A DNA stretch of 64,000 nt from Kosmotoga olearia TBF 19.5.1 (GTDB lineage Bacteria; Thermotogota; Thermotogae; Petrotogales; Kosmotogaceae): assembly GCF_000023325.1 (NCBI RefSeq), contig NC_012785.1:806001-870000 (forward strand). Direction: 5' to 3'. Under the pieces are notes generated by a model, which worked only from the letters and a program-made list of their open reading frames with translations, was not told the DNA's origin and made no database searches. The translations under genes were made by a program, and so were the position numbers. Position 1 is the first letter of the stretch; each line of letters begins with the position of its first letter. Of this stretch, positions 31,097 to 53,317 are shown one piece after another.

Positions 31097-31228
31097 TCCC
31101 GCAGAACTTTATCCCTTCACCCAGAAATACAGGCTAAAGAAAACCCAGACTGCCCTTGCTTACTGGGCGCTGGATAAGAAGAAGGAAAGGGAAAAGCTGA
31201 TTAATAGACTTTTGAGATTTATTTGAAA
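31097..31228 (+). pseudogene. C-terminal fragment of TPR/HTH regulator
   Basis: Reads PAELYPFTQKYRLKKTQTAL... to LLRFI and stop, identical in sense to the end of 42462-44114. It has no start and is the left edge of the 3288-bp duplicated block (31097-34384 = 43985-47272). Confidence 0.85.
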
Positions 31229-31231
31229 TCC

Positions 31232-32518
31232 TCAAACTGTTTCTGATGATTCAACAATTGAATTTTCGGTTTTTGGTTTGCTTTCAAGAAAGTCGAAAGT
31301 TTTTGTGAAGAGATAGACCAGTGTGATAAGAGTCGTTAAAATAAGTGAACCAAAAATAACTAAATGTACAGGATATTTATCTACAATTAATCCGTAAACA
31401 GCCATACCGATTGGCATGCTTATCTGTGCGATAAGGGAGATTGCCGATAGTACACGGGTCCTAAGTTCTGTTGGGGTTGCCAATTGGAAATATACTCCAA
31501 CAGGTGTATTGATGAAAGCATTGAAGAAGCCCATGGCAACGAAAAATCCTGCTATAAATATAAGGTATATCCAACTTGGTCCTCCAAAGAAGCTTATCAT
31601 CCGTGGAAAAGTAAGAGTGCCGAAAGTGTAGAAAAGAACTAATTGGAAAAACAAACCGGTTAAGAACAATCTTTTTATACTTTTGTTCTTAGCAATGATT
31701 ACAAGAAGTATGTTTCCCGCAGTAATACCGATGAGCCATGAAGCATTCAAAATTCCATATTGATAGCTATTGAATCCAACGATTTCCCTAGCAAAATATG
31801 GAATCACAAGCATTATCACTGGTCCCATAAGAAAGTTGGTAAGCATTATGAAAATCATTATTCGAAGTACTCCTGCTAGTTTTTTGAAAGCATTGACACC
31901 ATCTTTCAAGTCTTCCCAAATTTGTCTGACGGTTATTTTCTTTTTTACTGTTGTCTGTTCATAACTTATGAATATCTCGCTAATGCCGGATATAACGAAG
32001 GTCGTGGCATTTAATGCAAAAACGAGCCATATTCCAAGGGGATATAGAATGCCTCCAAGAATTGGACCAACAATGTAACTAAAGCTATCGGTTGCATTAA
32101 CTATTGAGTTTGCAGATGTAAGGTTATTTTCTGGGACTATATCTGGCAGTATAGCTCTTGTAACAGGATCGAAGAAGATATCCATAGTGGAAATAATCAG
32201 TTGAAAGCCATAAATAAGAATAATTCCCATGGATTCCTTAAAGGCAAGAAAAGCCATAAGAAAGATGATAATACCACGGAACAAATCGAGGTATACCATT
32301 AGCCATTTTCTGTTTAGTCTATCCCCGAACACCCCGGCTAAAGGAGCAAAGACAATTCGTGGTAGCATATTTATAAGCAAGAAAGTACCCATAGCAGCGC
32401 CAGAACCTGTGATATCCAATATGTAAAGCGACAGAGCAAGAGATTGTATACCACTCCCAAGAAGTGATACTAACCTTCCAAAATAATAAAGCCTAAAGTT
32501 CGTTTGCAAGCTAGACAT
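31232..32518 (-). CDS. MFS transporter
   Basis: A 428-aa, twelve-helix major facilitator protein of the MFS_3/enterobactin-exporter-like type. The loop motif GVFGDRLNRKWLMVYLDL between helices 2 and 3 is the family signature, and a long central loop holds KKKITVRQIWEDLKDG. Such transporters export small molecules, siderophores or antibiotics. It is divergent to a TPR/HTH regulator gene at 289 bp, taking the place that small secreted peptides have at the other regulator loci. Two residues differ from the copy at 44120-45406. Confidence 0.9.
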   Translation of the reverse strand: MSSLQTNFRLYYFGRLVSLLGSGIQSLALSLYILDITGSGAAMGTFLLINMLPRIVFAPLAGVFGDRLNRKWLMVYLDLFRGIIIFLMAFLAFKESMGIILIYGFQLIISTMDIFFDPVTRAILPDIVPENNLTSANSIVNATDSFSYIVGPILGGILYPLGIWLVFALNATTFVISGISEIFISYEQTTVKKKITVRQIWEDLKDGVNAFKKLAGVLRIMIFIMLTNFLMGPVIMLVIPYFAREIVGFNSYQYGILNASWLIGITAGNILLVIIAKNKSIKRLFLTGLFFQLVLFYTFGTLTFPRMISFFGGPSWIYLIFIAGFFVAMGFFNAFINTPVGVYFQLATPTELRTRVLSAISLIAQISMPIGMAVYGLIVDKYPVHLVIFGSLILTTLITLVYLFTKTFDFLESKPKTENSIVESSETV

Positions 32519-32641
32519 TTTTTGTCACCCCCGGAATTTTTGCTTATTTCTTTTGGTTAAAATCTAGAAATTCATTTAACCAATTTTCAAAAGAGTTTTT
32601 CTTGGTCTCTGGAAAATGTTTTTCGGGTTTAGTCAGTTAAA

Positions 32642-32687
32642 ATATTACTTGTGCATATATGATTTTCAAGTCTTTAGTATTTCGTAA
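32642..32687 (-). promoter_or_regulatory. Promoter of MFS gene with TNCAGAA-like site
   Basis: Reading leftwards: TTACGAA (32681-32687), 11 bp, TTGAAA (32664-32669), 16 bp, TAATAT (32642-32647), about 120 bp ahead of the MFS start. The CATAT just after the -35 is shared with the peptide and ABC promoters. The upstream site is one base off TACAGAA and single. Confidence 0.55.
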
Positions 32688-32694
32688 GTCTTAT

Positions 32695-32724
32695 TTGAAG
32701 CGGAGTACAAATAGACATTATAAT
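32695..32724 (+). promoter_or_regulatory. Probable promoter of TPR/HTH regulator
   Basis: TTGAAG, 18 bp and TATAAT on the plus strand, about 85 bp ahead of the proposed AUA start. A second option, TTGATT-16-TAGAAT, lies at 32740-32767. Both are in the duplicated block, so they recur at +12888. Confidence 0.45.
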
Positions 32725-32806
32725 AAACAATTATCCTTTTTGATTTTTTGATACTTAACACTAGAATAGAAAATGGAAGTGATGATATTTATAGGGAGGG
32801 AATCGT

Positions 32807-34411
32807 ATAAACCGTAAAGTTCCTGAATTACTCAACCATGCCTTTGGTGTTTTTTACTCGAGACCAATGATAAATATGCTAATAGATAACAAACCTTCCA
32901 GTGAATGGAAGCATTATTCCAGAGCCATTAAGTACTACTGTGAAGGAGACTTCAGCAAAGCAAAGTCTCAGATTGAAAGAGGCTTGAAGAGTAATATGAA
33001 AAACCGTAGTCTCTTTTATCTACTACTTTCTCTCAAACTACTCGTATCAACCGGACAGAACGATAAGCTTTACAACAGGCTTAGAAGAGAATTCGGCAGA
33101 ATACCGGTAAGAGTGAGACCAGAAGTCGTCTGGGCCTTAATCAACTATCACAGTATCTATCATACCGAAAGAGAACTCAAAGCCTTCAGAGTGTGGAGCG
33201 AAAGATACGAGCAGGAGAACACTGCAACGATAATGCTCTTCCTTGGAAAAGCAAGAAAAGAGGCTCTTGACAACAATAAAGAAAATGCGTTAAAACTCTT
33301 CGAAAAGACTTATGAACTGGCGAAAAAACTCGAAGATCCGCAGGGACTTATAAACGTCCTCAACGATTTTTCCTGGTACTTGAAGTTAGATACGAAAGAA
33401 CGTGCCTTGAAATTAGCAGAAAAGGCCTCCTACTATTCTGGCTACTACGATGAAGACCTAGCTGCCGCTCCTTATGTGCTCGATACCCTCGCAACTATCC
33501 AATTTGAAAATCACGTTATTTCATTATATAAAACCGCTGAAATACAGCGGTTTGTCGGCTTCAGAAATAGTAGTACCTCAACCATATTGAAAAAGAAAAG
33601 CCCAGTTTTCAATCCTAGAAGATCAAAATACGCAAACAATGAACTCATAAGGGATTACTTGAAGAATCGCATGAACAACCTTTTAGCTGTTAGTAGGAAC
33701 ACTGGAATTGCCTGGGATAACCTCAGCAAACTCATTAACGGCAAAACCCAAACCGTCAGGGGTAAAACTTTAAGGAAGATAATCACAGGATTGGGAATCG
33801 AGGTTGATCCACTCAACGATCCTTATCCGATCGTGAACGAATGGATAAAACTTCAGATAGATAAAGGCTTTGAAAATGCGATAACAGAACTGGAAAAACT
33901 CAAACCATCCGAACGTGAAATATTAATCCTCTCAACATACACCGCTCTTTTGAACAAAAGGAAAGATTATCCTTATCTAAGCAGGAAGGGAACGCTTTCC
34001 CGTGCACTGGAACTTTGTAAAGAAGACCTTCGAAGGTTTAGAGAATTTACGGAAAATCGTTATGAAATGAAGAAATTCGTGGCTCAACTCTTCGAGCTTC
34101 ATCCGTTTCTTGAAGGCAGGAGAGACCTTATTTGGAAATTCCTGAAGGCCTTACCTGCGAGAAAAAGAAAAGAGTTCATCCATAAGTATCTTCAACTCGG
34201 AGATGAAGACAGAGGGGTAATAGATACCTTCATGAGAAACTACGTTCGCTACGACAGGAACTGGGGCCTGAGACTCAAACCTCCCGCAGAACTTTATCCC
34301 TTCACCCAGAAATACAGGCTAAAGAAAACCCAGACCGCCCTCGCTTACTGGGCGCTGGATAAGAAGAAGGAAAGGAAAAAGCTGGCTAATAGACTGTTGA
34401 AGTTTGTTTGA
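32807..34411 (+). CDS. TPR/HTH transcription regulator, apparent AUA start
   Basis: The first ATG is at 32867, but the frame upstream to an ATA at 32807 reads INRKVPELLNHAFGVFYSRP, which aligns with the N-termini of the paralogues. GGGAGGG sits six bases before the ATA, and no ATG, GTG or TTG is available there. The 534-aa product has TPR-like helices in residues 40-250 (FSKAKSQIERGLKS, NALKLFEKTYELAKKLEDP), an HTH near 280-330 (LLAVSRNTGIAWDNLSKLINGKTQTV) and a C-terminal helical domain shared by all copies. It resembles RRNPP peptide receptors in parts, but with TPR before HTH. It is divergent to an MFS gene. Confidence 0.8.
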   Translation: MNRKVPELLNHAFGVFYSRPMINMLIDNKPSSEWKHYSRAIKYYCEGDFSKAKSQIERGLKSNMKNRSLFYLLLSLKLLVSTGQNDKLYNRLRREFGRIPVRVRPEVVWALINYHSIYHTERELKAFRVWSERYEQENTATIMLFLGKARKEALDNNKENALKLFEKTYELAKKLEDPQGLINVLNDFSWYLKLDTKERALKLAEKASYYSGYYDEDLAAAPYVLDTLATIQFENHVISLYKTAEIQRFVGFRNSSTSTILKKKSPVFNPRRSKYANNELIRDYLKNRMNNLLAVSRNTGIAWDNLSKLINGKTQTVRGKTLRKIITGLGIEVDPLNDPYPIVNEWIKLQIDKGFENAITELEKLKPSEREILILSTYTALLNKRKDYPYLSRKGTLSRALELCKEDLRRFREFTENRYEMKKFVAQLFELHPFLEGRRDLIWKFLKALPARKRKEFIHKYLQLGDEDRGVIDTFMRNYVRYDRNWGLRLKPPAELYPFTQKYRLKKTQTALAYWALDKKKERKKLANRLLKFV

Positions 34412-42461: not shown

Positions 42462-44114
42462 TTGATTAGCAAGAAATTCCCTGAATTTGTTGCGACTTTC
42501 TTGGAGTACGGTGGTTACGGAAAACCTTTTTTAAATTATTACTTCAATCATTCGAAGGACTCGGATTGGCTGGATTATTTTTTGATACTCAAATTGGTTT
42601 GGAAGCGAGAATATCCGAAAGCTCTGAGAGAGATTGACAGGGTATTAAAAAGAGTCAGGAAGAACAAAACGCTGACGTATTTTCTCCTTGCAGAGAAACT
42701 TGCATTGTTATCCAGGTTGGATACTGAACAAGCAATTTCACTGTATAAGCAGTTGAAATATGGGTTCTCAAAGATACCAAAAACAGCAAGGAATGTTGTT
42801 GCAACTGTGATGATAGGTGTTCATGCAGAACTGCAAAGTAATGAAGATATGCATGAATTCAGAACATGGAGCAAGCAATACCTCGAGCACAATCCCACAA
42901 GAGTATTTCTCGAACTTGGAATGGCAAGAAGAAAAGCAATTTCCGGAAATCTAGATATGGCGAAGGAATTATTTTTGGATGCTTTTGAAATCGCCAGAAG
43001 CATACCACATCCGGGGGGGATGAGTGATTCTTTAAACGATGCTGCGTGGTATTTAAGAGAGTATGATTCGGAATTTTCACTAAAACTGGCACAGAAATGC
43101 CTGTACATAGACGGTCAGTACTATGAAAAATTCAACGGAGTAATAAATGAGTTTGACACATACCACGAGGTTTTGAAGCTTACAAAGGTTGAATGTCTTT
43201 GTGAAAACGCAATGATTTTATATTCAATATTCGAACTGATTCAGGAAACAGCGAAGGGTTATCTATACAAACGATATGAGGGGATGTTAAAGGAGTGCTT
43301 GAAATTCATAACTGACCTTGAAGTTTCCTCTTACCGATCGGAATTGGCATTAATTGAATATCTAAGAAGCAGGATATCTAATATAACAGCTGCTTCTAAT
43401 AAAACAGGAATCGCCAGGCACAGACTCAGAGGGTTACTTAACGGCAAAACCCAAACCGTCAGGGGCGAGACTTTAAGGAAGATAATCACAGGATTGAAAA
43501 TCGAGGTTGATCCACTCAACGATCCTTATCCGATCGTGAACGAATGGATAAAACTTCAGATAGATAAAGGCTTTGAAAATGCGATAACAGAACTGGAAAA
43601 ACTCAAACCATCCGAACGTGAAATATTAATCCTCTCAACATACACCGCTCTTTTGAACAGAAGGAAAGATTATCCTTATCTAAGCAGGAAGGGAACGCTT
43701 TCCCGTGCACTGGAACTTTGTAAAGAAGACCTTCGAAGGTTTAGAGAATTTACGGAAAATCGTTATGAAATGAAGAAATTCGTGGCTCAACTCTTCGAGC
43801 TTCATCCGTTTCTTGAAGGCAGGAGAGACCTTATTTGGAAATTCCTGAAGACCTTACCTGCGAGAAAAAGAAAAGAATTCATCCATAAGTATCTTCAACT
43901 CGGAGATAAAGACAGAAGGGTAATAGATACCTTCATGAGAAACTACGTTCGCTACGACAGGAACTGGGGGCTGAGACCCAAACCTCCCGCAGAACTTTAT
44001 CCCTTCACCCAGAAATACAGGCTAAAGAAAACCCAGACTGCCCTCGCTTACTGGGCGCTGGATAAAAAGAAGGAAAGGAAAAAGCTGATTAATAGACTTT
44101 TGAGATTTATTTGA
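42462..44114 (+). CDS. TPR/HTH transcription regulator
   Basis: A 550-aa protein starting at TTG (MISKKFPEFVATFLEYGGYG). TPR-like helices fill residues 40-280 (YPKALREIDRVLKRV, DMAKELFLDAFEIARSIPHP). The HTH is near 295-345 (ISNITAASNKTGIARHRLRGLLNGKTQTV), and the shared C-terminal domain runs to the end (PAELYPFTQKYRLKK). From LLNGKTQTV onward the DNA is almost identical to 33740-34411, whereas the TPR half is quite different; the gene is a mosaic. It is the only intact regulator paired with a small secreted peptide in the window. DNA binding is inferred from the HTH, peptide sensing from the TPR part and the neighbour. Confidence 0.82.
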   Translation: MISKKFPEFVATFLEYGGYGKPFLNYYFNHSKDSDWLDYFLILKLVWKREYPKALREIDRVLKRVRKNKTLTYFLLAEKLALLSRLDTEQAISLYKQLKYGFSKIPKTARNVVATVMIGVHAELQSNEDMHEFRTWSKQYLEHNPTRVFLELGMARRKAISGNLDMAKELFLDAFEIARSIPHPGGMSDSLNDAAWYLREYDSEFSLKLAQKCLYIDGQYYEKFNGVINEFDTYHEVLKLTKVECLCENAMILYSIFELIQETAKGYLYKRYEGMLKECLKFITDLEVSSYRSELALIEYLRSRISNITAASNKTGIARHRLRGLLNGKTQTVRGETLRKIITGLKIEVDPLNDPYPIVNEWIKLQIDKGFENAITELEKLKPSEREILILSTYTALLNRRKDYPYLSRKGTLSRALELCKEDLRRFREFTENRYEMKKFVAQLFELHPFLEGRRDLIWKFLKTLPARKRKEFIHKYLQLGDKDRRVIDTFMRNYVRYDRNWGLRPKPPAELYPFTQKYRLKKTQTALAYWALDKKKERKKLINRLLRFI

Positions 44115-44119
44115 AATCC

Positions 44120-45406
44120 TCAAACTGTTTCTGATGATTCAACAATTGAATTTTCGGTTTTTGGTTTGCTTTCAAGAAAGTCGAAAGTTTTTGTGAAGAG
44201 ATAGACCAGTGTGATAAGAGTCGTTAAAATAAGTGAACCAAAAATAACTAAATGTACAGGATATTTATCTACAATTAATCCGTAAACAGCCATACCGATT
44301 GGCATGCTTATCTGTGCGATAAGGGAGATTGCCGATAGTACACGGGTCCTAAGTTCTGTTGGGGTTGCCAATTGGAAATATACTCCAACAGGTGTATTGA
44401 TGAAAGCATTGAAGAAGCCCATGGCAACGAAAAATCCTGCTATAAATATAAGGTATATCCAACTTGGTCCTCCAAAGAAGCTTATCATCCGTGGAAAAGT
44501 AAGAGTGTCGAAAGTGTAGAAAAGAACTAATTGGAAAAACAAACCGGTTAAGAACAATCTTTTTATACTTTTGTTCTTAGCAATGATTACAAGAAGTATG
44601 TTTCCCGCAGTAATACCGATAAGCCATGAAGCATTCAAAATTCCATATTGATAGCTATTGAATCCAACGATTTCCCTAGCAAAATATGGAATCACAAGCA
44701 TTATCACTGGTCCCATAAGAAAGTTGGTAAGCATTATGAAAATCATTATTCGAAGTACTCCTGCTAGTTTTTTGAAAGCATTGACACCATCTTTCAAGTC
44801 TTCCCAAATTTGTCTGACGGTTATTTTCTTTTTTACTGTTGTCTGTTCATAACTTATGAATATCTCGCTAATGCCGGATATAACGAAGGTCGTGGCATTT
44901 AATACAAAAACGAGCCATATTCCAAGGGGATATAGAATGCCTCCAAGAATTGGACCAACAATGTAACTAAAGCTATCGGTTGCATTAACTATTGAGTTTG
45001 CAGATGTAAGGTTATTTTCTGGGACTATATCTGGCAGTATAGCTCTTGTAACAGGATCGAAGAAGATATCCATAGTGGAAATAATCAGTTGAAAGCCATA
45101 AATAAGAATAATTCCCATGGATTCCTTAAAGGCAAGAAAAGCCATAAGAAAGATGATAATACCACGGAACAAATCGAGGTATACCATTAGCCATTTTCTG
45201 TTTAGTCTATCCCCGAACACCCCGGCTAAAGGAGCAAAGACAATTCGTGGTAGCATATTTATAAGCAAGAAAGTACCCATAGCAGCGCCAGAACCTGTGA
45301 TATCCAATATGTAAAGCGACAGAGCAAGAGATTGTATACCACTCCCAAGAAGTGATACTAACCTTCCAAAATAATAAAGCCTAAAGTTCGTTTGCAAGCT
45401 AGACAT
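44120..45406 (-). CDS. MFS transporter (duplicate)
   Basis: 428 aa, the copy of 31232-32518 with two visible substitutions (LVFVLNATT for LVFALNATT; TFDTLTF for TFGTLTF). The helix 2-3 motif GVFGDRLNRKW is intact. Divergent to the regulator gene at 45695, with the same intergenic region as copy 1. Confidence 0.9.
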   Translation of the reverse strand: MSSLQTNFRLYYFGRLVSLLGSGIQSLALSLYILDITGSGAAMGTFLLINMLPRIVFAPLAGVFGDRLNRKWLMVYLDLFRGIIIFLMAFLAFKESMGIILIYGFQLIISTMDIFFDPVTRAILPDIVPENNLTSANSIVNATDSFSYIVGPILGGILYPLGIWLVFVLNATTFVISGISEIFISYEQTTVKKKITVRQIWEDLKDGVNAFKKLAGVLRIMIFIMLTNFLMGPVIMLVIPYFAREIVGFNSYQYGILNASWLIGITAGNILLVIIAKNKSIKRLFLTGLFFQLVLFYTFDTLTFPRMISFFGGPSWIYLIFIAGFFVAMGFFNAFINTPVGVYFQLATPTELRTRVLSAISLIAQISMPIGMAVYGLIVDKYPVHLVIFGSLILTTLITLVYLFTKTFDFLESKPKTENSIVESSETV

Positions 45407-45529
45407 TTTTTGTCACCCCCGGAATTTTTGTTTATTTCTTTTGGTTAAAATCTAGAAATTCATTTAACCAATTTTCAAAAGAGTTTTTCTTGGTCTCTGG
45501 AAAATGTTTTTCGGGTTTAGTCAGTTAAA

Positions 45530-45575
45530 ATATTACTTGTGCATATATGATTTTCAAGTCTTTAGTATTTCGTAA
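45530..45575 (-). promoter_or_regulatory. Promoter of duplicate MFS gene
   Basis: Same elements as 32642-32687: TTACGAA, 11 bp, TTGAAA, 16 bp, TAATAT. Confidence 0.5.
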
Positions 45576-45694
45576 GTCTTATTTGAAGCGGAGTACAAAT
45601 AGACATTATAATAAACAATTATCCTTTTTGATTTTTTGATACTTAACACTAGAATAGAAAATGGAAGTGATGATATTTATAGGGAGGGAATCGT

Positions 45695-47314
45695 ATAAAC
45701 CGTAAAGTTCCTGAATTACTCAACCATGCCTTTGGTGTTTTTTACTCGAGACCAATGATAAATATGCTAATAGATAACAAACCTTCCAGTGAATGGAAGC
45801 ATTATTCCAGAGCCATTAAGTACTACTGTGAAGGAGACTTCAGCAAAGCAAAGTCTCAGATTGAAAGAGGCTTGAAGAGTAATATGAAAAACCGTAGTCT
45901 CTTTTATCTACTACTTTCTCTCAAACTACTCGTATCAACCGGACAGAACGATAAGCTTTACAACAGGCTTAGAAGAGAATTCGGCAGAATACCGGTAAGA
46001 GTGAGACCAGAAGTCGTCTGGGCCTTAATCAACTATCACAGTATCTATCATACCGAAAGAGAACTCAAAGCCTTCAGAGTGTGGAGCGAAAGATACGAGC
46101 AGGAGAACACTGCAACGATAATGCTCTTCCTTGGAAAAGCAAGAAAAGAGGCTCTTGACAACAATAAAGAAAATGCGTTAAAACTCTTCGAAAAGACTTA
46201 TGAACTGGCGAAAAAACTCGAAGATCCGCAGGGACTTATAAACGTCCTCAACGATTTTTCCTGGTACTTGAAGTTAGATACGAAAGAACGTGCCTTGAAA
46301 TTAGCAGAAAAGGCCTCCTACTATTCTGGCTACTACGATGAAGACCTAGCTGCCGCTCCTTATGTGCTCGATACCCTCGCAACTATCCAATTTGAAAATC
46401 ACGTTATTTCATTATATAAAACCGCTGAAATACAGCGGTTTGTCGGCTTCAGAAATAGTAGTACCTCAACCATATTGAAAAAGAAAAGCCCAGTTTTCAA
46501 TCCTAGAAGATCAAAATACGCAAACAATGAACTCATAAGGGATTACTTGAAGAATCGCATGAACAACCTTTTAGCTGTTAGTAGGAACACTGGAATTGCC
46601 TGGGATAACCTCAGCAAACTCATTAACGGCAAAACCCAAACCGTCAGGGGTGAAACTTTAAGGAAGATAATCACAGGATTGAAAATCGAGGTTGATCCAC
46701 TCAACGATCCTTATCCGATCGTGAACGAATGGATAAAACTTCAGATAGATAAAGGCTTTGAAAATGCGATAACAGAACTGGAAAAACTCAAACCATCCGA
46801 ACGTGAAATATTAATCCTCTCAACATACACCGCTCTTTTGAACAGAAGGAAAGATTATCCTTACCTGAGCAGAAAAGGAACGCTTTCCCGCGCACTGGAA
46901 CTTTGTAAAGAAGACCTTCGAAGGTTTAGAGAATTTACGGAAAATCGTTATGAAACAAAGAAATTCGTTGCTCAACTCTTTGAGCTTCATCCGTTTCTTG
47001 AAGGCAGGAGAGACCTTGTTTGGAAATTCCTGAAGGCCTTACCTGCGAGAAAAAGAAAAGAGTTCATCCATAAGTATCTTGAACTCGGAGATAAAGACAG
47101 AGGGGTAATAGATACCTTCATGAGAAACTACGTTCGCTACGACAGGAACTGGGGCCTGAGACTCAAACCTCCTGCAGAACTTTATCCCTTCACCCAGAAA
47201 TACAGGCTAAAGAAAACCCAGACCGCCCTCGCTTACTGGGCGCTGGATAAAAAGAAGGAAAGGGAAAAGCTGAGAACGCTGCTTTGCAGCGGATGCGAAT
47301 CCCTTCGGGATTGA
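45695..47314 (+). CDS. TPR/HTH regulator (duplicate), altered C-terminus, AUA start
   Basis: The copy of 32807-34411, with the same apparent ATA start (ATG only at 45755). It carries TPR-like repeats, HTH and C-terminal domain as there. The HTH region reads GETLRKIITGLKIEV, as in 42462-44114, rather than GKTLRKIITGLGIEV. The last eight residues of the family are replaced by about twelve residues (RTLLCSGCESLRD) encoded by a 21-bp hairpin array that starts at 47273. The protein is otherwise intact and may still work. Confidence 0.78.
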   Translation: MNRKVPELLNHAFGVFYSRPMINMLIDNKPSSEWKHYSRAIKYYCEGDFSKAKSQIERGLKSNMKNRSLFYLLLSLKLLVSTGQNDKLYNRLRREFGRIPVRVRPEVVWALINYHSIYHTERELKAFRVWSERYEQENTATIMLFLGKARKEALDNNKENALKLFEKTYELAKKLEDPQGLINVLNDFSWYLKLDTKERALKLAEKASYYSGYYDEDLAAAPYVLDTLATIQFENHVISLYKTAEIQRFVGFRNSSTSTILKKKSPVFNPRRSKYANNELIRDYLKNRMNNLLAVSRNTGIAWDNLSKLINGKTQTVRGETLRKIITGLKIEVDPLNDPYPIVNEWIKLQIDKGFENAITELEKLKPSEREILILSTYTALLNRRKDYPYLSRKGTLSRALELCKEDLRRFREFTENRYETKKFVAQLFELHPFLEGRRDLVWKFLKALPARKRKEFIHKYLELGDKDRGVIDTFMRNYVRYDRNWGLRLKPPAELYPFTQKYRLKKTQTALAYWALDKKKEREKLRTLLCSGCESLRD

Positions 47315-50375: not shown

Positions 50376-51677
50376 CTATTTGTTATTGTTCCAATAATCC
50401 ACTTCCACTTTAGAAAGCCTCGACGTATCTCCCTTTTTCCTGCCGTATTTTGCACACGGCCGTCCGTTTACTTCAACAACATCAGCTGTGAAATCTACCT
50501 TTTCTTTCAGTAACTTTGAACCAACACCGTAAACATCTGCTGGCACTTCCAATTTCTCAAACAGTTCTATTTTTTTTGCGTCGAAACCACCGCTAACTAC
50601 TATCTTTAGATCTTTCATACCGTACTTGTCAAATTCCTGTCGAGCTTTCCAGACCAGTTCCGGACATACTCCCAAAGACGAAGTATCTTTTGGTACAACA
50701 GAACGATCTCTGAGCGTTCCAGAGGTATCGAACCTGACACCCCAGATCTTTCCTTTACCCGGACCTATAACAATTGAAGGATCGCTTTCCCCAAGAACAA
50801 ATTTCTTTCCTGTTGCCCTTTCGTAAAATCTCGCAATAACGCGGTATGTGGTATTAATTACATCGTTATCCCAATCAACGAGAACTATCCTGTTGACTTT
50901 TTCACTGATATACTCATCGAAGGCAACGGCAGCGTCCTCAGTATTTCCCTCATAGGCGGCTATAAGAGCATGAGGGATGGTACCCATGCTTTCAACGCCC
51001 CAGTAATCAGCATTGGCATCCGTGGATACGCCAAAAGCACCGGCTTTTAGGGCAGCATAACCATCGATCGCCTGTGTCCAGAAGTGATCAAACCGCGCAC
51101 TGAAGAATAATATGGGTTTTCCCTTCGCCGCATTCACCACTTTTTTAACAGCCGTAGCTGTTGATGAAGCGCGCGCCATTACTCCTAAAAGTATGGTTTC
51201 AAGATAGCCAAAATACCTGGGATCTCCCTTTATGGTCATCACCGGTTCCATATCCTTACATTCATCGCCATCGTACAGGGCGTGCACTTCAATTTCAGGC
51301 CATTTATCCACCCATAATTTGTTCAATTCAAGTTTCAGTTGCCACTTCTTCGCCGATAGCTCATGCAAGGCTTTCAGGTTCATATCCCAGGCGGCATACT
51401 GAATTTTTCTTTCCACTTCGAGGATCTTCTCAAAAAGCTCGTTTGCCTTTGTTTCGTCTTTGTAATATCCTGTCCCAAACCTTAAAATTGCAAGCGCCTC
51501 ATCGATTCCAACAACTATCGTGTCATTCCTTGGGAAATACTGGTACAGGACTTCTGACGACTTATTTGCTTTTTTCAAAACCTCGACATACCGGGTAAAA
51601 TATTTATCTGAATAGTAACCAGCTCTTATTTTGTCAATTGGTACCTTGAATACCCGCGGATCTAATCTTTTTTTCAT
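50376..51677 (-). CDS. Nicotinate phosphoribosyltransferase
   Basis: A 433-aa member of the NAPRTase family, making nicotinate mononucleotide from nicotinate and PRPP. Visible motifs: FSARFDHFWTQ with the active region, VSTDANADYWG, VLVDWDNDVI and RFDTSGTLRDRS, and the phosphate-binding VVSGGFDAKKI near the C-terminus. Its ATG overlaps the nicotinamidase stop, coupling both steps of nicotinamide salvage. PdxS follows 18 bp later, so the operon joins PLP and NAD cofactor supply. Confidence 0.92.
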   Translation of the reverse strand: MKKRLDPRVFKVPIDKIRAGYYSDKYFTRYVEVLKKANKSSEVLYQYFPRNDTIVVGIDEALAILRFGTGYYKDETKANELFEKILEVERKIQYAAWDMNLKALHELSAKKWQLKLELNKLWVDKWPEIEVHALYDGDECKDMEPVMTIKGDPRYFGYLETILLGVMARASSTATAVKKVVNAAKGKPILFFSARFDHFWTQAIDGYAALKAGAFGVSTDANADYWGVESMGTIPHALIAAYEGNTEDAAVAFDEYISEKVNRIVLVDWDNDVINTTYRVIARFYERATGKKFVLGESDPSIVIGPGKGKIWGVRFDTSGTLRDRSVVPKDTSSLGVCPELVWKARQEFDKYGMKDLKIVVSGGFDAKKIELFEKLEVPADVYGVGSKLLKEKVDFTADVVEVNGRPCAKYGRKKGDTSRLSKVEVDYWNNNK

Positions 51678-52204
51678 TCAATCACCTCTACATTGAGCAC
51701 CTCTTTCATCTGCCTCAAAGCAAATCTGTGAAGATCGTTGTCATAGGAGATCACGCCTTTTTCATACAAAACCACTTTAAGTTTCCTGTTCCTCAGCTCT
51801 TCGACAGTGAAGAGCACACATATATTGGTCACCACGCCTGCTACATGAAATTCATCCAGATCAAGTTCCCTGATTAACGCATCGAATTTGGTCTGATAAA
51901 AAGCACTGTATTTCCTTTTCTTTATCGTATAATGCTTTTCATAACCTATAAGCTCACGTTTTACGACGTCAGCAAGTTCTACTCCTTTTGTCCCTTTAAC
52001 ACAATGAGGGGGCCAGTACTCAAATTCCGGGTCATCCTTCTCATGAAAATCCATGGTGGTGATTATCGGTAAACCCTGCCTCTTGAACCGATCTATCAGT
52101 TCAAGCACCACCGGAAAAATCTTTCTGGAACCATCAACAAAGAGTGCTCCTCCCGGTTCGACAAAATCTTTCTGAAGGTCGATAAGGAGTAAACTTTTGA
52201 TAAT
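51674..52204 (-). CDS. Nicotinamidase, apparent AUU or AUC start
   Basis: The catalytic triad is present: Asp in LLLIDLQKDFV, Lys in HCVKGTKG and Cys in GVVTNICV. This is an isochorismatase-fold nicotinamidase converting nicotinamide to nicotinate for the next gene's product. The triad Asp lies upstream of the first GTG, and the frame has no ATG, GTG or TTG between it and the in-frame TAG. The only candidates are ATT (52204) or ATC (52201), just behind AGGGGTGG. Length then is about 176 aa, normal for the family. Confidence 0.85.
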   Translation of the reverse strand: MIKSLLLIDLQKDFVEPGGALFVDGSRKIFPVVLELIDRFKRQGLPIITTMDFHEKDDPEFEYWPPHCVKGTKGVELADVVKRELIGYEKHYTIKKRKYSAFYQTKFDALIRELDLDEFHVAGVVTNICVLFTVEELRNRKLKVVLYEKGVISYDNDLHRFALRQMKEVLNVEVIE

Positions 52205-52256
52205 ACCACCCCTGAAACAATTCTATCGCAGAATCCCTAACACTTCAATACAAATT

Positions 52257-52279
52257 AAAAAGCGGGGCATTCGCCCCGC
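52257..52279 (-). terminator. Intrinsic terminator of envelope operon
   Basis: On the minus strand GCGGGGC-GAAT-GCCCCGC followed by TTTTT, 18 bp after the stop of 52298-53317. It separates the envelope operon from the NAD/PLP operon. Confidence 0.88.
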
Positions 52280-52297
52280 ATGCACTGTGCTTTCAGT

Positions 52298-53317
52298 TTA
52301 TAACCACTCAAAAGATATTTTGGACATATCGGATTTGATGAACAGCTGGCAGGTTACTTTTGCGTGCTCTATGTTTCGGGAAACATATCCTTCTTCTCTT
52401 GGAATGAGCTCTTCAAAACTACTCCAGTTGAGCTCGCCTTCATGCACAATGGTCACGCCGACATCCCTTGGAACTCTAAGATTCAAAGAGGTTACCTCAC
52501 ATTCCACCTCTATTCTGGAATCACGCATCTTAGACGGAATCAATGATAACCTCGAAAGATTCGCTCTTATAGTGGCACTGTCGAGATTGATGTTTGAAAA
52601 ATCCAGCACTGAATCCGTTCCATCAAGGGTAGCATTCAAGAATATAACCGGTTTGCTGTTAAGTTCAACATCTACCCGGGATTTGGATAGAACACTGGAA
52701 ACGCCCGCTTTGGCTTTACACTTTACCTTTAAATTCGCTTTAGAATTGTCCATGTTGTACTGGACATTACCATTAAAATCTTTTTTATCGAAATTCATAT
52801 TTACTTCAAAACCCTTGTCCTCCTTACCATCTACAAGAAGTACCTTACTAAGGTTAGCATCCAGTTCAACTTCATAAGTATTGGCTTCAATGGGTCTGGA
52901 CAAAGAGATATGTTGCCTGGAAGAAACTTTGCGAACCTTGGAGAATCGAGGGTTTCTAAAAAGGGACATTATCCCCCAACTGAGCATATAGGAACCTATG
53001 AGTGCCAGCAAAAGCTCTCCAAAATTCCAATCCAGTCCCCATATATTGAATGCATCGATTATCAAAACGGTAGCAAAAATCAAGCTTCCCAGGTATTCAC
53101 CTTTCGGGTATCTGAAAATCTTCAAACCGTTGTTTATGAATAAAGCAGCAAACAAGAGTTCAAACAGCACCCAAAAAGAAAAATCGATTACGTTTATACC
53201 CGAAAGTAATATTAATGTACCTATGAATATAGCAACAATTGCTCCAAATTTCACTTTTCTTTTCCTCCTTTCGTTATGAGCGTCAAAATATTTCGACTTT
53301 CCACAACATGCGCTCAT
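52298..53317 (-). CDS. LiaF-like/DUF5668 membrane protein
   Basis: A 339-aa protein with four N-terminal membrane helices (VKFGAIVAIFIGTLILLSGI and following, residues 20-130). A C-terminal beta-rich part resembles the LiaF/YvqF C-terminal or toastrack-type domain (VFLNATLDGTDSVLDFSN, VPRDVGVTIVHEGELNWSS). The ATG overlaps the stop of 53314-54276. In Firmicutes such proteins tune envelope-stress two-component systems; here no kinase is near. The start MSACCGKSK has two Cys but no lipobox. Confidence 0.72.
   Translation of the reverse strand: MSACCGKSKYFDAHNERRKRKVKFGAIVAIFIGTLILLSGINVIDFSFWVLFELLFAALFINNGLKIFRYPKGEYLGSLIFATVLIIDAFNIWGLDWNFGELLLALIGSYMLSWGIMSLFRNPRFSKVRKVSSRQHISLSRPIEANTYEVELDANLSKVLLVDGKEDKGFEVNMNFDKKDFNGNVQYNMDNSKANLKVKCKAKAGVSSVLSKSRVDVELNSKPVIFLNATLDGTDSVLDFSNINLDSATIRANLSRLSLIPSKMRDSRIEVECEVTSLNLRVPRDVGVTIVHEGELNWSSFEELIPREEGYVSRNIEHAKVTCQLFIKSDMSKISFEWL

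Follow-up and report, generated by a model that had tools for sequence, protein, structure and literature searches.

In Kosmotoga olearia TBF 19.5.1, pncA, which encodes a nicotinamidase, most likely begins at an ATC codon, which would be a real, weak and IF3-sensitive start peculiar to the K. olearia lineage. The gene lies in a window of 64,000 nucleotides (contig NC_012785.1, 806,001 to 870,000), and positions are those of the window unless stated otherwise. Our reading is based directly on the open frame, the placement of the ATC in the orthologous start column, a conserved promoter and Shine-Dalgarno (SD) site, the lack of other starts, the ATC of infC in the same genome and an intact protein. 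This makes pncA a rare candidate for initiation without AUG, GUG or UUG, and one that is easy to test. Promoter, ribosome site and spacing are common to relatives and one base of the start is changed, a clean comparison that is usually missing and that makes it possible to test what AUC initiation costs a thermophile and what it is used for. In the literature, judged by title or abstract opening, we found no published treatment of the K. olearia pncA start.

The pncA frame on the minus strand reads, from 52225 to 52178, TAG AAT TGT TTC AGG GGT GGT ATT ATC AAA AGT TTA CTC CTT ATC GAC, and it is open between this TAG and the TGA at 51676-51674. The features of the start region are:

52262-52279, minus strand: terminator-like hairpin of the upstream gene (promoter/hairpin scan)
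52243-52248, minus strand: predicted -35 box TTGAAG, with a 17-nt spacer (promoter scan; TTGAAG also in five relatives)
52220-52225, minus strand: predicted -10 box TAGAAT, which holds the in-frame TAG (promoter scan; TAGAAT also in five relatives)
52205-52212, minus strand: ribosome-binding site GGGGTGGT (ad hoc score 17.4), with no difference in the three closest orthologues
52202-52204, minus strand: ATT, second and less likely near-cognate candidate, in an unconserved column and with an SD spacing 3 nt shorter than in relatives
52199-52201, minus strand: ATC, proposed start codon, in a column that is canonical in 59/68 other orthologues and at a 12-nt interval from AGGGGTGGT
52109-52111, minus strand: GTG, first canonical in-frame start (ORF list), codon 31 counted from the ATC; its product is without D8

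The GTG at 52111 is the earliest in-frame ATG, GTG or TTG. It opens an ORF of 145 amino acids, and the catalytic Asp sits 23 codons ahead of it; the preliminary description was thus right that this residue (in LLLIDLQKDF) lies upstream of every canonical start in the frame. Gene finders cannot call starts other than ATG, GTG and TTG, and a GTG-started annotation of 145 residues would delete the catalytic Asp.

TTGAAG-17-TAGAAT was the sole promoter-like match in 52050-52450 (shuffled sequences gave a mean of 0.4), and it follows the terminator-like hairpin. The predicted -10 hexamer begins with the TAG, so transcription probably starts downstream of this stop codon. The transcript is therefore unlikely to include the frame upstream of the ATT, an upstream in-frame start was ruled out, and the only candidates are ATT 52204 and ATC 52201, as had been proposed. 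Two details of that proposal had to be adjusted: the TAG, placed ten codons upstream of the ATT, stands seven codons before it with six sense codons between, and the near-cognate codons, said to adjoin the ribosome-site sequence directly, nearly do so, as one T separates AGGGGTGG from the ATT. Transcription starts about seven bases past the -10 box, and if this rule holds here the pncA transcript would begin near A52213, which leaves a leader some 12 bases long with little beyond the SD site. For Thermotoga maritima, short leaders are reported in PMC3636130. A conserved leader structure or thermosensor was also considered and rejected, as the fold of the K. olearia leader is weak (-6.9 kcal/mol, 37 C, 42 nt) and was not common to the other six leaders tested, so no thermosensor is claimed.

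At E<=1e-30 a pncA gene was found in 69 of 103 Thermotogota genomes, K. olearia included, and the 68 others were compared with it; the searched set contains this one genome from the genus of the window. At the column of ATC 52201 the other orthologues have 33 ATG, 23 GTG and 3 TTG, and in the remaining nine an ATG or TTG lies one or two codons further upstream. ATC at this column was seen in K. olearia alone (1/69 genomes), and a non-canonical pncA start in none of the 68 others, so the trait is lineage-specific. That every one of these orthologues has a canonical codon at the column or within one or two codons of it argues against a chance placement of the ATC. In the six orthologues from the same family, the ATG or GTG start falls precisely on this column. 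A separate scan covered named genome contigs and found 32 loci, partly from the same genomes, and 27 of them were canonical at the column; the other five, which are more distant, have a canonical codon a few codons upstream. In the three closest orthologues (genus g3; 56-60% identical to K. olearia PncA) AGGGGTGGT is followed by three more bases and then the start, an interval equal to that of K. olearia. Alignment and spacing from the ribosome site together place the start at ATC 52201, not at ATT, and so narrow the earlier choice between the two. The SD-to-start interval and the downstream frame equal those of these three relatives in length, and a frameshift or indel was rejected for this reason. 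The simplest history of the start would be a single G-to-C change of an ATG. A comparison of homologous starts had been suggested as a check; the canonical codons at the column speak against a conserved regulatory start and leave the ATC of K. olearia unrefuted.

By homology, 51674-52201 is an intact PncA-type nicotinamidase gene. The gene and its downstream neighbour have the following features:

51674-52201, minus strand: pncA coding sequence from the ATC, 175 codons and TGA (Isochorismatase domain match; orthologues start at the ATC column)
52178-52180, minus strand: catalytic Asp codon, D8 from the ATC, invariant in the alignment and matched to the Asp of PDB nicotinamidase chains
51917-51919, minus strand: catalytic Lys codon, K95, invariant and matched by alignment to the DKRHYSAF Lys of 3s2s
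51818-51820, minus strand: catalytic Cys codon, C128, invariant in the orthologue alignment
51680-51688, minus strand: pncB ribosome-binding site GAGGTGATT (ribosome-site scoring)
50376-51677, minus strand: pncB, nicotinate phosphoribosyltransferase, with an ATG that overlaps the pncA stop (ATGA); PRK07188, E 3.1e-89, below cut-off

The product matched Pfam Isochorismatase (PF00857) with an E value of 1.2e-31 and 110.5 bits against a cut-off of 27. The top NCBIfam model was nicotinamidase PRK11609, at 70.3 bits and below its equivalog cut-off of 174; the name PncA is given on the basis of this best model, the pncB neighbour and the PDB relatives. D8, K95 and C128 are kept in 7/7 aligned PncA sequences, in segments that align to nicotinamidase-like PDB chains, and we take Asp-Lys-Cys to be the catalytic triad of the family. 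K. olearia PncA resembles both other Thermotogota PncA and 1ilw/1im5, presumably the Pyrococcus horikoshii enzyme, in sequence and catalytic residues. Many Thermotogota PncA also have a pncB neighbour, and what sets K. olearia pncA apart is its start codon alone. Downstream of pncB follow a gene matching pdxS and a pdxT-like ORF (pdxT named by eye). The arrangement is best explained by a pncA-pncB operon that pncA leads and that has a sigma-70-type promoter of its own.

Initiation at AUC has a precedent in this genome. A search with the IF3_N domain found infC in 16 of 17 genomes of the family (Kosmotogaceae), and all 16 loci start, shortly after GAGGTGA, with AUC (11), AUA (3) or AUU (2). Between the preceding stop and this codon, 13 of the loci have no in-frame ATG, GTG or TTG; in the other three, K. 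olearia among them, GTG and ATG occur only inside or directly against the ribosome site. The K. olearia infC reads GAGAGGTGATGGAT-ATC (contig position 1548606 region) and appears to start at this ATC. These starts, in the genome and in the family, set the precedent for AUC initiation in K. olearia. They are a second result, firmer than the one for pncA, and automatic gene finders would misplace the infC start throughout the Kosmotogaceae. An initiator-type anticodon stem sequence was found in one copy in K. olearia, at a locus with two tRNA-Met genes.

According to PMC5472188, E. coli infC starts with ATT and that of Streptomyces with ATC, IF3 represses the GTC start of sigR in Streptomyces, a non-canonical start outside infC, and starts other than ATG, GTG and TTG are known from few bacterial genes apart from infC. 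AUU, AUC and AUA are among the bacterial start triplets that IF3 discriminates against, as stated in a review (PMC4611024). Like the genes of the infC/sigR kind, pncA has no usable ATG, GTG or TTG and a near-cognate codon after an SD site, and it probably joins, as a lineage-specific case, the few bacterial genes whose start is an AUH codon. The likeness to infC, with its IF3-autoregulated AUU or AUC start, lies in a near-cognate AUH codon after a strong SD, which is ATC for both genes here; the difference is that the AUH start is present in 16/16 infC loci of the family, whereas for pncA it occurs in 1/69 genomes and has no autoregulatory logic. With sigR, pncA shares being a non-infC gene whose start lacks a third-position G. 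However, the sigR start was tested by mutation and by changed IF3 (PMC5472188), while that of pncA is a lineage-specific candidate.

We consider it likely that an ancestral ATG (or GTG) was changed to ATC and that initiation still takes place there, with a low and IF3-sensitive level of PncA and with pncB translated from an SD of its own. The use of AUC, the low PncA level and the sensitivity to IF3 are what we infer to be most likely. The SD of the pncA leader would hold the 30S subunit, fMet-tRNA would read AUC with a mismatch in the third position, and IF3 would discriminate against this initiation complex, which would keep PncA low and sensitive to IF3. pncB would be translated apart from pncA, by means of its own strong SD.

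That the gene has recently lost its function, with a real ATG-to-ATC change that leaves pncA essentially untranslated and with supplied nicotinic acid used via pncB, is in our view unlikely. In genus g4 (probably Mesotoga), none of the ten genomes gave a pncA orthologue at E<=1e-30 or nadA, so loss of pncA is tolerated in the family, and this fits such a loss, as do the strong SD that pncB keeps for itself and the pncA SD, which by ribosome-site scores against relatives has undergone no compensating strengthening in K. olearia. On the other hand, the frame is open over 175 codons, the catalytic residues are kept and the rate of change is not raised, so that we saw no signs of protein decay. 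The identity to two orthologues from genus g5 is 0.50-0.51 for K. olearia PncA and 0.49-0.53 for the three g3 orthologues, and to the orthologue of another family genome (G001) 0.42 versus 0.40-0.42; these similar values mean that evolution was not faster along the K. olearia lineage. Most of the differences from g3 are at third codon positions (58/38/110, 58/33/115 and 58/43/112). A very recent event would, however, leave no trace of decay. The known routes to NAD also bear on this. In the K. olearia genome there was no match to NadA (2 of 17 family genomes were positive, both of genus g5), nadC gave only a sub-threshold match inside pncB, and NAMPT_N was not found. The NAPRTase model PF04095 had no match in the genome either; it is silent even on the divergent pncB, so its silence says little. 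As nadA, nadC and NAMPT are not recognisable, pncA-pncB is the only recognised nicotinamide route, which argues against a dead pncA because recycling would have no other recognised path. K. olearia probably requires external niacin. A weak PncA paralogue (35% identity) fits other amidohydrolase models better and could share the nicotinamidase function.

Another reading, which we find quite improbable, is that the species has ATG and that the ATC is either a sequencing error or a mutation found only in the stock that was sequenced. The two codons are one base apart and 68/68 other orthologues are canonical at the column or one to two codons away, as this reading would expect; yet the genome is a single contig of 2,302,126 bases with a completeness of 99.97, the neighbouring bases, spacing and frame match those of relatives with no indel, and start-codon base errors are expected to be rare in finished genomes. 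A special case of our preferred reading is a regulatory start that has evolved as in infC and sigR, where the level of IF3 would set PncA and couple NAD salvage to the translation apparatus. It could draw on the ATC found at K. olearia infC as well, on the repression of the sigR GTC start by IF3 in Streptomyces (PMC5472188) and on the ribosome site of pncB, which would let PncA vary alone. The preliminary description had likewise compared the start to infC; the comparison is apt, as the genome's own infC appears to start at ATC and IF3 represses sigR (PMC5472188), but the "deliberate" regulation it suggested finds no support, such a start being present in 0/68 other orthologues. Furthermore, the strong pncB site is common in the phylum and thus not a clear compensation, and no physiological reason was found. 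NAD salvage under IF3 control, with AUC common to PncA and IF3 and with recycling rising when free IF3 falls relative to ribosomes, is thereby very unlikely. If true, nicotinamide recycling could shift across the 20-79 C growth range of K. olearia with PncB made independently, and a metabolic gene would be regulated by start-codon fidelity itself through a single base change. Least probable is initiation at ATT 52204 instead of ATC: it too is an AUH codon and adjoins the SD, but it is not in the orthologous column and its distance from the SD would be 3 nt shorter than in relatives.

The ribosome site of pncB scored 20.7 in K. olearia, compared to 11-13 in six family relatives with the same short overlap with pncA. 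We considered whether this strong site compensates for the weak pncA start, and dropped the idea because strong sites are common elsewhere: the pncB site is strong in most other members of the phylum examined. Possibly, the strong site may have been retained in K. olearia rather than gained.

Starts in the rest of the genome were surveyed over 464 kb, made up of the window and 20 evenly spread 20-kb stretches, with 293 predicted genes of which 255 lie outside the window; the survey is blind to infC-like genes with a canonical codon close by. A first filter flagged four genes, two of which had an ordinary ATG on inspection, the others being pncA and a pseudouridine synthase gene with CTG. With a second filter, 11 genes were flagged for near-cognate codons while three control codon sets gave 5, 2 and 1, so many of these flags are noise; on inspection by eye, those besides pncA and the CTG gene were judged either ambiguous or ordinary. 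We rejected the idea that starts are generally loosened in K. olearia, since the filters gave one other convincing case, the CTG gene. AUH starts outside infC are thus rare in K. olearia, with pncA as an exception. The CTG gene, RsuA/RluB-like (name by eye), lies at contig position 912231 with CTG as the sole plausible start after AAGGAGGT, and its orthologue in G001 also has CTG. The window also has a 3.29-kb direct repeat (31097-34384 and 43985-47272) with 99.2% identity between its two copies; both hold an ORF of about 540 amino acids (32795-34411 and 45683-47314) in whose frame AGGGAGG and then ATA come before the first ATG.
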